45,416 nt of DNA from Anaerolineae bacterium (GTDB lineage: Bacteria; Chloroflexota; Anaerolineae; UBA4142; SHND01). This document shows positions 5,337 to 30,814 of this stretch, piece after piece. The stretch is taken from the NCBI GenBank assembly GCA_021463195.1, contig JAJTXZ010000036.1, positions 1 to 45,416 of the forward strand, read 5' to 3'. Made by a program: the position numbers and the translations under genes. The notes under the pieces are model-generated. The model was not told the DNA's origin. It searched no databases and worked only from the letters and a program-made list of their open reading frames with translations. Every line of letters starts with the position of its first letter. Within the stretch, counting starts at the first letter, position 1.

Positions 5337-5464
5337 GACCTGACACAGTACATCCCAGATTTTTCTTTGGGACACGGATTTCATAGATTTCACAGATAAA
5401 ACGGGTTGGAATCTGTGTTATCTGCGTTCTCTGTGTCCAAAATTGTGATGCAGTGTGACAGGTC
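5337..5464. repeat. 128-bp imperfect palindrome with 7-nt internal period
   Basis: The ends GACCTGACACAGTACATC (5337-5354) and GATGCAGTGTGACAGGTC (5447-5464) are inverted copies with three mismatches. The interior alternates CACAGAT/GATTTCA-type and TCTGTGT-type 7-nt words around a centre near 5401. It begins 4 nt after the glcE stop and fills the gap to the zinc-ribbon gene. It could act as a terminator or processing site for glcE. Confidence 0.75.
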
Positions 5465-6344: not shown

Positions 6345-7683
6345 GCAGATCCAAAGAATAGGTTTCACCATCCCCGACCCGCCGCACGACGCGGATTTAT
6401 TGCGCTGCGTGCATTGCGGTTTGTGTCTCAATCATTGCCCGACCTATCGTTTAACGTCGCTCGAAACCGAATCGCCGCGCGGCAGAATTTTTCTCATCAA
6501 AGAGCTTGCCGAAGGCAAACAAATTGTCAACGATATTTTCATGGAACATATCGGCTTGTGTTTGGACTGTCGCAACTGCGAAACGGTCTGTCCGAGCGGC
6601 GTGCGCTATGGCGTTTTGTTGGAAGCGGCGCGCGGCGAAATCGTCAAGCAGGGAAAATTATCGCGTCAAGAAAAATTCATTCGCTGGGCGGTGTTCAAAC
6701 AATTATTTCCGCACCCCACGCGTTTGAATTTTGTCGTAGGCATGGCGGGCTTGTATCAACGCACGCTCCAACCCATTGTGCGCGCATCCGGCATTTTGAA
6801 ATTGTTTGGACGCTTGGGCGAAATGGAAGGCATGTTGCCCGCGCGCAAACTACGGCAATACAAACCGCCAAAACCAAAATCCCCTCCTCCCGAAATTGAA
6901 GGGGCGTATCGCCGAACCGAGTCTCCAGTCTCTAGTCTCCAATCTCCAAAACGCCGCGTCGCCCTCTTTACCGGCTGCCTCATGCGCGCGGGCTTTGCCA
7001 ACATTCACGAAGCGACCGTGCGCGTATTGGAAAAAAATCATTACGAGGTCATTGTTCCTGACGGACAAATTTGCTGCGCCGCGCTGCACGTTCACGCGGG
7101 CGAACGCGACACGGCGCGCGCAATGGCAAAACACAACATTGATTTATTTATGCGCGAACAATGGGATGCGATTGTGATTAACGCGGCGGGCTGCGGCGCG
7201 CAACTCAAAGAGTACGCCGAAATTTTTCGCGACGACCCCGAGTATTTTCACAAAGCAGAAGAATTCGCCAAACGCGTCAAGGATGTGAGCGAACTGCTCG
7301 CGCCAAACATCGCGCCGAACGCGTCATTGCCAAGCAAGACGCGCGTGACGTACCAAGACGCCTGTCATCTCGCGCACGCGCAAAAAATTCGATTGCAGCC
7401 GCGTCAAATCATCAAACAAATCGGCAACGTCGAACTCGTCGAAATGCGCGCGAGCGACCGGTGCTGCGGCAGCGCGGGCATTTACAATGTCGTGCATCCC
7501 GAAATGTCCGACCAACTGATTGACGAAAAAATGGTCAACACGCGCGACACACGCGCGGAAATCGTCGTCACCGGCAATATCGGTTGTCTCTTGCAGTTGG
7601 AATACGGCGCAAGACGCGCGGGGTGGAATGGGCGCGTCTTGCATTTGGTGGAATTGTTGGATGAGGCGTACAAAAATGGGTAG
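6337..7683 (+). CDS. glcF: Glycolate oxidase iron-sulfur subunit GlcF-like
   Basis: Iron-sulfur subunit that takes electrons from GlcD/GlcE. Two ferredoxin-type [4Fe-4S] motifs are present (Cys24, 27, 30, 34 and Cys75, 78, 81, 85, each ending in CP), followed by two CCG-type domains with GCLMRAG, CCAALHVHAG, CHLAHAQ and CCGSAGIYN. At 448 residues it has the usual length for the family. Residues about 195-204 (SPVSSLQSPK) are an extra linker encoded by four 7-nt repeats (6921-6948), an in-frame expansion of the kind that occurs upstream of glcD. The last codons and the stop (AAAAATGGGTAG) are part of the palindromic array at 7673-7739. Heterodisulfide-reductase-like or LutA-like oxidoreductases share the CCG fold, but the GlcDE neighbours favour GlcF. 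Confidence 0.9.
   Translation: MNEQIQRIGFTIPDPPHDADLLRCVHCGLCLNHCPTYRLTSLETESPRGRIFLIKELAEGKQIVNDIFMEHIGLCLDCRNCETVCPSGVRYGVLLEAARGEIVKQGKLSRQEKFIRWAVFKQLFPHPTRLNFVVGMAGLYQRTLQPIVRASGILKLFGRLGEMEGMLPARKLRQYKPPKPKSPPPEIEGAYRRTESPVSSLQSPKRRVALFTGCLMRAGFANIHEATVRVLEKNHYEVIVPDGQICCAALHVHAGERDTARAMAKHNIDLFMREQWDAIVINAAGCGAQLKEYAEIFRDDPEYFHKAEEFAKRVKDVSELLAPNIAPNASLPSKTRVTYQDACHLAHAQKIRLQPRQIIKQIGNVELVEMRASDRCCGSAGIYNVVHPEMSDQLIDEKMVNTRDTRAEIVVTGNIGCLLQLEYGARRAGWNGRVLHLVELLDEAYKNG
6921..6948 (+). repeat. In-frame heptad repeats inside glcF
   Basis: Four consecutive 7-nt units, GTCTCCA, GTCTCTA, GTCTCCA and ATCTCCA. The last is identical to the unit repeated five times before the glcD start. They encode a low-complexity Ser/Pro/Gln linker between the ferredoxin half and the CCG half of the protein. 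Confidence 0.85.
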
Positions 7684-18559: not shown

Positions 18560-19588
18560 TTACAAATCGGACAAATCCATATTTTCGGCGACGCGCGCTG
18601 ACGCAGCCGTCCACGCATCTTGGGCGGACAGCGCATTGCCAAGTTCAAGCGCGTCATTTGGCGGCGCGGCGACATCCCACATGCGACAGAACGCGCAACG
18701 CCCCGGCGCGGTCGTAGGTTGGCCGCAAACATCGCACACGCGCAAGGCGATTTGGTCAGAAGAGGGCGCGTCAAAAAAACCTGCGCGACGCGCTTTTAAA
18801 AATTGGGTATAAAATTGCAATTTCGCGCCCGGCGATTGGGCTTCGAGTTGATTGAGCAGCGTTTTATAAAAATTAGTGAGATTCCCGACGGCATGCGGAC
18901 ATTCGTCGTAAACATAGTTAATGTCGCGCACCATCGCGTACGCCGCCGTTTCGCGTTCGTAAAAACGACAAAATGGTTTCACCTTGCGCGCCAAACCCTC
19001 GCCCGCTTCCAACACCGGCGCTTGGCGCGCCAGATAACCGGTTTGCCAATGCAAAGTATTTTGCATCAGCACCGCGGCTTCGTCGTCAAGATTATGCCCC
19101 GTCGCCAACGCCGCGTAACCGCGTTCCGCCGCGAGCCGATTCATCACATAGCGTTTGGTGAGTCCGCACGCGGAGCAGGGTTTGCCATGTCCGCGCGAGC
19201 TCGCGCGCGCGATTTCGGGAATGGTCTTGCCGTACGTTTCTTGCACATCCACTATATGCAGCGTCGCATCGGGAACATGCTGCGCTTGGAATTCGCGGAT
19301 GCGCGCGAGCGATTGGTCCGAATATGCCAGCTCGCCTTGAATTCCCAGCCCAACGTACAAGCCATCAGTCGCATAACCGAGCCGCGTCAAGACATCCCAC
19401 AGCGCGAGCGAATCTTTGCCGCCGCTCACGGCGACCAGCACGCGTTCGGCGCGCGTAAACATTTTGTATTTTTCAATCGCGCGCTGCGTGGAAACCACAA
19501 ACCACTCCCCGTAATGGGGAGCGCACAGCGCGAGTTTGTGATGCCGCATGTTAATTACGGCGGACTCGTTACATTTTCGACAACGCAT
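18560..19588 (-). CDS. ttuA: tRNA 2-thiouridine synthetase TtuA-like (TtcA/NcsA group)
   Basis: A 342-residue PP-loop ATPase. It has an N-terminal zinc finger (Cys3, Cys6, Cys22, His25), the SGGKDS PP-loop at residues 55-60, and the three Cys expected to hold a [4Fe-4S] cluster (Cys138, Cys141 in KPCSACG and Cys230 in DECPH). A C-terminal zinc finger follows (Cys285, 288, 298, 301). In Thermus TtuA thiolates uridine-54 of tRNA, with the sulfur delivered by TtuB; archaeal NcsA relatives act on U34. The sulfur-carrier gene lies just upstream on the same strand, supporting the TtuA/TtuB assignment and possible heat adaptation. The start is preceded by two 8-nt repeats (AGTTCGAT on the + strand), so there is no Shine-Dalgarno. 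Confidence 0.88.
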   Translation of the reverse strand: MRCRKCNESAVINMRHHKLALCAPHYGEWFVVSTQRAIEKYKMFTRAERVLVAVSGGKDSLALWDVLTRLGYATDGLYVGLGIQGELAYSDQSLARIREFQAQHVPDATLHIVDVQETYGKTIPEIARASSRGHGKPCSACGLTKRYVMNRLAAERGYAALATGHNLDDEAAVLMQNTLHWQTGYLARQAPVLEAGEGLARKVKPFCRFYERETAAYAMVRDINYVYDECPHAVGNLTNFYKTLLNQLEAQSPGAKLQFYTQFLKARRAGFFDAPSSDQIALRVCDVCGQPTTAPGRCAFCRMWDVAAPPNDALELGNALSAQDAWTAASARVAENMDLSDL

Positions 19589-19590
19589 AA

Positions 19591-19657
19591 GAGTTCGATA
19601 GTTCGATAGTGCGTTCGCGCAATAGGCAAAGACTGTCCCTATCGCGCTATCGCGCTA
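19591..19657. repeat. Octanucleotide repeats spanning the ttuB-ttuA junction
   Basis: On the + strand AGTTCGAT is repeated at 19592-19607, and CTATCGCG is repeated at 19639-19654. The first pair abuts the ttuA ATG. The second pair lies inside the end of ttuB and encodes its last residues and stop. Confidence 0.8.
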
Positions 19658-19845
19658 CCTCCTGACACGACTGCGACCAATTTCACAACATCGCCCGCGC
19701 GCAAAATGACATCATCCGTGACCAATTTGCCATTCACCGTAATTAAAACACTTTCGGGGTCAATGCCGATTTTTTGCAGCGCATCGCGCGCCGTCATATT
19801 TTCCTTGACCTCGAATTTTTTATGCCGAAACGTGATTTCAATCAT
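19639..19845 (-). CDS. ttuB: ThiS/MoaD-family sulfur carrier TtuB-like, with five residues after Gly-Gly
   Basis: A 68-residue beta-grasp protein of the ThiS/MoaD/TtuB family, which carries sulfur as a thiocarboxylate on a C-terminal Gly-Gly. The fold motifs ITVNGKLV and LRAGDVVKLVAVVSGG are clear. The family normally ends at Gly-Gly; here Gly62-Gly63 is followed by SAIAR and a TAG. This tail is encoded by an 8-nt repeat pair (19639-19654). A TAG lies one frame away directly after GGAGG, so a one-base loss or array growth could have removed the original stop. Activation would need removal of the tail by a peptidase, or the carrier may be inactive. A TACAAT box 8 nt before the ATG suggests a leaderless transcript. 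It lies 50 nt upstream of ttuA. Confidence 0.85.
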   Translation of the reverse strand: MIEITFRHKKFEVKENMTARDALQKIGIDPESVLITVNGKLVTDDVILRAGDVVKLVAVVSGGSAIAR

Positions 19846-22243: not shown

Positions 22244-22801
22244 TTATGCGCCGCGCCGCTGCCGCAATAATATCAGCCCACCGACAACGCCCGCGGCGAG
22301 GCCAAACACGAGCGCGGCGCGCGTGTCGAACAACGCGCGCACATTGCCGCTGACGTTCTGCGCCAGAATCAAACCGACAAACGAATTATTGACTTGGATA
22401 TTTCTAGCCACCATCGCCGCCGCGCCACCTTGGTCTACGGCGATCGTGTCACGCGCAAACATCCACTGCGCGCCGCCCGCTTCGATTTCGACACTCGTCG
22501 CCAACAAACCCACCGCGCCGCCGGCGGTGATGTTGAGTTGGTCGCTGCGCGCCACCAAGATGCCGCCTTGCACGACCTCGATCGAACCGCCTTCCGCTTG
22601 CATAATGCCGCCCTGTTTGACGGTCACCGCTTCCGCGCTGACATTCTGCGCGCCACCCTGTTTAATCGTCACCGTTTGCGCGTCAATATTCTGCGCGCCG
22701 CCTTGCGTGAGATTAATGATTTGTCCTTGCAGCGTGTCGCCAACCGCGTCAAACGCTTCATCGTCCAATTCCTGGTCAAGCTCTTGAATAGGTTCTTCCA
22801 T
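22244..22801 (-). CDS. Tail-anchored beta-solenoid repeat protein of unknown function
   Basis: A 185-residue protein. The ATG follows GGAG at 7 nt. A short acidic N-terminus (about residues 1-25) leads into eight consecutive 15-residue repeats (about 27-150). The pattern is hydrophobic-x-Q-G-G-A-x-x-[hydrophobic]-x-A-x-x-[hydrophobic]-x, as in IKQGGAQNVSAEAVT and VDQGGAAAMVARNIQ. One TM helix (LVFGLAAGVVGGLILL) and a basic RQRRGA tail close it. Such strict periodicity predicts a short beta-helix with Gly-Gly turns, similar in principle to bactofilins but with a membrane tail. No signal peptide is present, so the solenoid probably faces the cytosol. It lies 15 nt after the second M16 gene and 48 nt before isocitrate dehydrogenase, in one operon. 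I recognise no named family. Confidence 0.8.
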   Translation of the reverse strand: MEEPIQELDQELDDEAFDAVGDTLQGQIINLTQGGAQNIDAQTVTIKQGGAQNVSAEAVTVKQGGIMQAEGGSIEVVQGGILVARSDQLNITAGGAVGLLATSVEIEAGGAQWMFARDTIAVDQGGAAAMVARNIQVNNSFVGLILAQNVSGNVRALFDTRAALVFGLAAGVVGGLILLRQRRGA

Positions 22802-29842: not shown

Positions 29843-30814
29843 TCACGCCGCCGCCAACTTTTCTTCGCTATTTTCCACATCCTGAAAAGCCGCGACCGCG
29901 ACTTGAATCATATCGTCCGTCGGTTGGCGCGTCGTCAACGATTGCAGCGCGAGCGATGGACGCACAATCAGCCAATCGAACACGAAAATGTTGCGATGCT
30001 TGGATGAAAAACGAATGAGCTCATAACTTACCGCTGCCACCACCGGAATCAACACAATCCGCGACGCGAGTCGCACGCCGAGCGTCAAATCGCCGAGCAG
30101 AATAAAAAATAAAATCGAAATGACAACAACGGTCAACAAAAAACCGGTGCCGCAGCGCGGATGCTCTTTGGGAAATTTCTGCACAGCGGCGGGTAGCAGC
30201 GACGCGCCACCTTCGTACGCCGCAATCGTTTTATGCTCCGCGCCGTGATACATAAACACGCGTTGGATTTCGGGAATACGCCCGATCGCAATCAAGTACG
30301 CCAAAAATAGCCCCAACCGAATCACGCCTTCGAGAACATTATTCCAAAACGGCGTCACGCCGTATCCACCCAAAAAGTTCGCGACGACGACAGGCAGCGC
30401 AAAAAAAATCGTCAACCCTAAACCGAGCGACACCGCCAGCGAACCGTAAATGGCGTTTTGCGAAAGACCCTCGTCGGATTTTTGATTTTTGATTTCCGAT
30501 TTCTGATTTTCGATTCCATTCTCTCGCGCCATCCGTCGCTCATCGTCCGCCGCCCCTTCGTCCTTTGCCTGTTCATTCGCCGACCACATCAACATCCGCG
30601 TGCCCAAAACGAGCGTATCCCACAACAAAGGCAGCGCGCGCAAAAAAGGCGCCTTGCTCCAAATGCCCGCATACACCCCTCGCGGAATGGATTCGCGCCG
30701 CAGCACAATCTCGCCATTCGCGCGCCGCACCGCGCACGACACATAATTGCGCCCGCGCATCATCACGCCTTCCATCACCGCTTGGCCGCCATACAAAATT
30801 TTTGGTTCCGTCAA
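29843..30814 (-). CDS. DUF1385 family membrane protein
   Basis: A 323-residue protein. A TTG start at 30814 is chosen because GGGAGGG lies 3-9 nt upstream and the next residues (TEPKILYGGQAVMEGVMMRG) match the family N-terminus; an in-frame extension to 30868 lacks a ribosome site. Four to five TM helices follow, with FMYHGAEHKTIAAYE and HPRCGTGFLL as family signatures. DUF1385 proteins are widespread in Gram-positives, Chloroflexota and Thermotogae; their function is not established. Residues about 98-111 (GIENQKSEIKNQKS) are encoded by six 7-nt repeats and form an expanded linker in a charged loop between TM segments. Confidence 0.85.
   Translation of the reverse strand: MTEPKILYGGQAVMEGVMMRGRNYVSCAVRRANGEIVLRRESIPRGVYAGIWSKAPFLRALPLLWDTLVLGTRMLMWSANEQAKDEGAADDERRMARENGIENQKSEIKNQKSDEGLSQNAIYGSLAVSLGLGLTIFFALPVVVANFLGGYGVTPFWNNVLEGVIRLGLFLAYLIAIGRIPEIQRVFMYHGAEHKTIAAYEGGASLLPAAVQKFPKEHPRCGTGFLLTVVVISILFFILLGDLTLGVRLASRIVLIPVVAAVSYELIRFSSKHRNIFVFDWLIVRPSLALQSLTTRQPTDDMIQVAVAAFQDVENSEEKLAAA
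30478..30519. repeat. Six in-frame heptad repeats inside the DUF1385 gene
   Basis: GAT begins each unit at 30478, 30485, 30492, 30499, 30506 and 30513, giving GATTTTT twice, GATTTCC, GATTTCT, GATTTTC and GATTCCA. Forty-two nt equals fourteen codons, so six units preserve the frame. The encoded segment is hydrophilic and low in complexity. Confidence 0.9.

Follow-up and report, generated by a model that had tools for sequence, protein, structure and literature searches.

TtuB proteins with residues behind the Gly-Gly in Anaerolineae: probable precursors trimmed by a type I JAMM peptidase

In the window, which is the whole 45,416-nucleotide stretch of Anaerolineae DNA that was analysed, ttuB encodes a sulfur carrier in which Gly-Gly is followed by five further residues. 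Judging from gene content and distribution, TtuB is most likely made as a short precursor that a type I JAMM trims after the Gly-Gly, its stop codon drifting into the flanking DNA, here an octamer repeat. Among 152 genomes, tails are found almost only where a type I JAMM is present, and TtuB is therefore probably a precursor that is cut to size. We propose that: a standalone type I JAMM metallopeptidase would cut TtuB after Gly63; the freed Gly-Gly would be adenylated by an E1-like enzyme and would then carry sulfur for TtuA on tRNA, mature TtuB presumably serving TtuA; and the position of the stop codon would be only loosely constrained because the peptidase would remove anything behind the Gly-Gly. 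In the window species, the stop would have drifted into an intergenic octamer array, yielding SAIAR-TAG.

The ttuB gene, its tail and the octamer arrays

The minus-strand open reading frame at 19639-19845 encodes a 68-aa product, MIEITFRHKKFEVKENMTARDALQKIGIDPESVLITVNGKLVTDDVILRAGDVVKLVAVVSGGSAIAR*, with the C-terminal end VVSGG-SAIAR-stop. Its TtuB/ThiS-like core (residues 1-63; 19657..19845, minus strand) ends in Gly62-Gly63, as expected of a sulfur carrier of this kind, with the codons at 19662-19660 and 19659-19657. The beta-grasp ThiS domain is recognized by Pfam ThiS (44.4 bits, cut-off 22.5), which covers residues 3-63 and whose profile ends exactly at Gly63, and by a PDB profile search matching SAMP2 (5lda_B, 8e-11) as well as TtuB (5ztb/5gha). 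The five tail codons (19642..19656, minus strand) lie beyond the ThiS match and are followed by a TAG stop (19639..19641, minus strand). The order Gly62-Gly63, SAIAR, TAG, read earlier from the letters of this DNA, is thereby confirmed. The encoded C-terminus is SAIAR, not Gly-Gly, and the protein matches the mature carrier form only if trimmed. A search of the window genome revealed no second TtuB copy with a free end, giving chance matches only.

The tail and its stop are encoded by an array of CTATCGCG (2.4 copies, 19639..19657, plus strand; 100% match in Tandem Repeats Finder). The earlier note had the tail encoded "precisely" by two octamers; the tail is indeed repeat-encoded, but the fit is only nearly exact, as the 2.4 copies begin on the last base of the Gly63 codon and take in the whole stop. 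Because the array runs that far, the ttuB stop is repeat-made as well. The single unit occurs four times in the window against 2.8 expected, and this near-chance count was rejected as evidence by itself, the paired pattern being needed. The genome holds 28 copies of the paired form, CTATCGNNCTATCG, and none of the reversed control pattern; the array therefore belongs to a real dispersed repeat family. An array of CGCGATAG has one stop per three copies in every frame, while CTATCGCG, in the other direction, is open in all frames. A frame that enters the repeat in the former direction must therefore close within eight codons, hence the short tail here. Repeat units of several other relatives share this stop-in-every-frame property, and those of several others do not. 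The repeat accounts for the letters of the SAIAR tail only; the wider tail phenomenon is independent of the octamer arrays.

A second array, AGTTCGAT (2.4 copies, 19592..19610, plus strand; Tandem Repeats Finder), is in part reverse-complementary to the first. The spacer RNA (19589-19665, minus strand) folds at -28.9 kcal/mol (z -3.2), for which we claim no function. In most genomes of the genus and sister family (loci L005-L016 and L018), the ttuB-ttuA spacer carries short tandem units with inverted partner copies, and these units differ between species, as if arrays had been replaced in place. Further short tandem arrays lie in the window at 1295-1349, 5373-5433, 6920-6948 and 30477-30515, with units CCAATCT, CACAGATTT/ATCTGCGTT, AGTCTCC and GATTTTT; they resemble the spacer arrays in style with other units. 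A 45-bp tandem repeat (2.1 copies, 22607-22699) lies within a 185-aa open reading frame (22244-22801, minus strand) with repeated GGAQN/VKQGG motifs.

Tails in relatives and the state of the thiolation genes

The tail could be a sequencing or assembly indel, the real gene stopping right at Gly-Gly. The source of the window is a draft assembly of 143 contigs, and the out-of-frame TAG that had been noticed directly after GGAGG is present, within GGAGGTAG. However, comparison of ttuB 3' ends in relatives, which the earlier note had called for, showed that all five sequenced congeners keep ttuB (77-89% identity) and that all five are tailed, each differently and over different spacer DNA. Their tails, GL, SNQ, KDE, TGDSSSSDLVWGRGTGDF and EIGDWRLEALSSPSLQSPVCSYEMS (the last two of 18 and 25 residues), are unrelated in sequence, and most of their spacers carry species-specific short tandem units with reverse-complement copies further along. 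Because every congener has a different tail, the idea that the stop was lost by a one-base deletion, or by a sequencing error, is not needed; and as all the congeners are tailed too, a slip in the window assembly cannot be the general explanation. In addition, random errors would not track JAMM, as the tails of the survey described below do. We consider an indel very improbable.

Beyond the genus, ttuB ends exactly at Gly-Gly in six of 11 sister-family genomes. Tail sequences are hardly conserved, even inside a genus. In family f15 (loci L152, L159, L161 and L162), a four-residue tail overlaps the likely ttuA start, so that the two frames share bases.

Alternatively, TtuB could be inactivated or decaying in the window species, the masked Gly-Gly abolishing tRNA thiolation, since the C-terminal glycine is how this family works (PMC3980101). 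The state of the genes argues against this. The TtuB core is conserved, the genome has two E1-like ThiF genes, and the next gene downstream, a TtuA-like tRNA thiouridylase gene (18560..19588, minus strand; Pfam ATP_bind_3 and TtuA_LIM_N; NCBIfam TtuA 284 bits, under the equivalog cut-off of 450), is intact, with its PP-loop and LIM-type zinc finger cysteines. Moreover, gene and tail are both kept in the congeners and in many families. With all six congeners keeping the tailed gene, the earlier suggestion that thiolation is disabled is disfavoured, and decay is hardly to be expected. Neither an isolated indel nor gene death accounts for the window ttuB.

Tails and type I JAMM genes across the class

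The earlier note had proposed to look for a JAMM/Mov34 gene. The window genome has one clear Prok-JAB JAMM, on another contig (C69:22284-22649) directly downstream of glyA (PF14464, 82.7 bits, cut-off 25), with an intact HSH-x7-S-x2-D motif (ETCG...HSHPVTQPYPSATD). The window genome thus pairs a TtuB that extends past Gly-Gly with a cognate JAMM, as expected for a JAMM-processed ubiquitin-like precursor. The HSHP...S..D motif is present in all 39 JAMM loci read, and their tree separates standalone type I enzymes (including that of the window genome), Mec-like type II enzymes (HSHPD...) and a small third kind. Two profiles split these kinds cleanly: on the type I profile, type I enzymes reach at least 103 bits, and no other JAMM exceeds 83. 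In G092, a contig edge truncates a type I gene, of which a 73-bit piece is left. Type I genes have various neighbours (glyA, CNNM/CorC, ParA/NUBPL) and adjoin neither ttuB nor an E1 gene in any neighbourhood examined, while type II genes, where neighbours were scanned, adjoin PALP (cysM-like) or DUF4395/ThiS genes. Against the PDB, the type I profile matched PfJAMM1 (5lda_A) at 6e-21; PfJAMM1 and SAMP2, among the best solved relatives of JAMM and TtuB, are partners in one crystal entry (5LDA).

Of 395 genomes of the class, 160 have the gene according to a TtuB-core profile; 152 loci, drawn from the class set and from G003 and G010, were retrieved and read. The surveyed genomes were also scanned for Prok-JAB genes, with a second, looser threshold for those that lacked a JAMM. 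Weak Prok-JAB matches in the latter, which we take to be RadC-like or other paralogs, were not counted: nearly all score under the cut-off, and most are partial and lie in frames some 250 aa long. Tails were found in 56 of 152 genomes, ranging from one to 25 residues plus one 300-residue fusion. Genomes with a strong JAMM match had 51 tailed and 34 tail-less genes, and those with none or a weak one had 5 and 62 (Fisher 6.7e-12), the JAMM calls being hand-transcribed from tables for draft genomes of one class, where gene absence may mean missing sequence. By kind of JAMM, tails occurred in 48 of 73 genomes with type I, 3 of 12 with only other JAMMs and 5 of 67 with none (type I against the rest, Fisher 6.7e-13). 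Type II or other JAMMs were accordingly rejected as the trimmer, as they alone go with tails in only those 3 of 12.

In genomes at least 90% complete, tailed and tail-less genes numbered 40 and 18 with type I, 2 and 9 with other JAMMs only, and 2 and 43 without JAMM (type I against 4 and 52 without it, Fisher 2.4e-12; exception tails V, Y, EA and REAG). Among the 45 well-assembled genomes without JAMM, TtuB thus stops right at Gly-Gly in 43 and has a single extra residue in two. The five tailed JAMM-less genomes comprise three incomplete assemblies (69-88%) and two with one-residue tails; tails also occur in two more well-assembled genomes whose JAMMs are all of other kinds. At the family level, tails of at least two residues occur in 12 of 16 mainly type I families versus 1 of 19 others. 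Gene spacing was rejected as a confounder: JAMM stayed associated with tails when the distance to ttuA was taken into account (p 7e-11), whereas that distance had no further effect given JAMM (p 0.26).

It is also conceivable, if unlikely, that a general carboxypeptidase removes the tails or that the E1 tolerates them, the JAMM link being indirect via shared ancestry. Most tails are short, with a median of 2 residues; tails of 1-6 residues occur in a few genomes without JAMM; and the Treekit independent-pairs sign test, although pointing in the same direction, was not significant, being underpowered with too few informative pairs. On the other hand, on a TtuA+TtuB tree of 118 genomes, with at least 21 changes of tail state and at least 15 of JAMM, the four-state dependent model was favoured over the independent one, and more so for type I (p 1.8e-5) than for any JAMM (p 0.001); with states taken at face value, the dependent model estimated the rate of tail gain without JAMM at about zero. 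A carboxypeptidase would also have difficulty with tails as long as 13-25 residues and with the Era fusion described below. These results strongly favour trimming by a JAMM-type peptidase, one of the alternatives in the earlier note: the JAMM of the window genome retains its motif intact, and tails follow that JAMM type class-wide.

Trimming would not leave the end wholly free. As many as 42 of 55 tails are at most five residues long against 21% expected under free drift, and some constraint therefore remains; the end is relaxed, not free. Because 25 type I genomes have no tail, trimming cannot be the sole job of this JAMM. Short tails persist across whole groups, with two residues in 8/8 genomes of family f11 and 13 in 3/3 of f6, as would be expected if the tail were a selected regulatory mask and regulated JAMM cleavage gated TtuB activity. 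Given the poor conservation of tail sequence even within a genus and the many tail-less type I genomes, we regard such a mask as quite unlikely, and simple trimming of a precursor with a drifting stop is preferred.

The longest extension is in G313, which carries a type I JAMM. At L238:3650-4744 (minus strand, contig C65), the TtuB Gly-Gly is followed by STFH and a complete in-frame Era GTPase, giving 364 aa from a GTG start. The first in-frame ATG, GTG or TTG after the Gly-Gly is a GTG that already lies within the first Era strand. The fusion is the only full-length Era match in this one draft assembly (267 bits, cut-off 116; others at most 80 bits), and ttuA was not found in the 11.5 kb around it. 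On the same contig, a ThiS-like domain is fused in frame to DUF4395 beside a Mec-like type II JAMM (L194:2458-3294, plus strand). Tentatively, JAMM maturation may, class-wide, have made TtuB an obligatory precursor with a changeable C-terminal context, whose stops were overrun time and again by adjacent repeat DNA and, in a single lineage, by an entire essential gene; the TtuB-Gly-Gly-Era polyprotein might then supply its ubiquitin-like modifier and its ribosome-assembly GTPase in equal amounts, a possible bacterial parallel to ubiquitin-ribosomal protein fusions.

Meaning and comparison with known systems

Maturation from a processed precursor is characteristic of eukaryotic ubiquitin, and Urm1/ubiquitin-like systems are thought to descend from the tRNA-thiolation branch. 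If TtuB is routinely a precursor in a large bacterial class, processing would be widespread in that branch. The distribution points to a specific peptidase-substrate pair, in which the C-terminus would be defined by the peptidase so that the stop codon may drift. For annotators, a ubiquitin-like protein with residues past Gly-Gly need not be a pseudogene. JAMM maturation of ubiquitin-like precursors is already known, from archaea and for the MoaD-MoaE of Deinococcus; what appears to be new is the TtuB precursor and its drifting stop.

CysO-CysM-Mec and QbsE-QbsD are ThiS-like carriers paired with JAMM peptidases, and the type II JAMMs of the class, with their PALP (cysM-like) and DUF4395/ThiS neighbours, resemble these. 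TtuB and type I JAMM are another pair, because type II or other JAMMs alone show no link to tails. In eukaryotic ubiquitin-ribosomal protein fusions, a ubiquitin-like protein is joined in frame to a ribosome-related protein, as in the G313 fusion; unlike them, the latter is from one draft genome, Era is a GTPase rather than a ribosomal protein, and cleavage is putative.

The Thermus system (TtuB/TtuA/TtuC plus JAMM) has the same carrier and thiouridylase as the window system; in the PDB, the alignment of the TtuB chains reaches to within one residue of their end. Deletion of the T. thermophilus JAMM leads to aberrant TtuB conjugates and about 50% less tRNA thiouridine (PMC3980101), so the JAMM effect there was seen on conjugates, while precursor trimming is not described in that review. 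According to a prediction from a 2006 comparative study, ThiS/MoaD moieties are released from fusions by JAB domains (PMC1779556). In Deinococcus, DRJAMM cleaves MoaD-MoaE (PMC8832034), and a bacterial JAMM thereby frees a sulfur-carrier glycine from a linear fusion; its substrate, however, is the MoaD of molybdopterin synthase in one fixed fusion, whereas here it would be TtuB with drifting tails. Closest in form are the archaeal SAMP/JAMM systems (CsJAMM of Caldiarchaeum; PfJAMM1-SAMP2, PDB 5LDA), in which a ThiS/MoaD-type beta-grasp precursor meets a JAMM, CsJAMM cleaving CsSAMP precursors (PMC6043591). The present system differs in that it is bacterial, the carrier lies beside ttuA, cleavage is predicted from distribution, and the tail, which varies between species, can be encoded by intergenic repeats.
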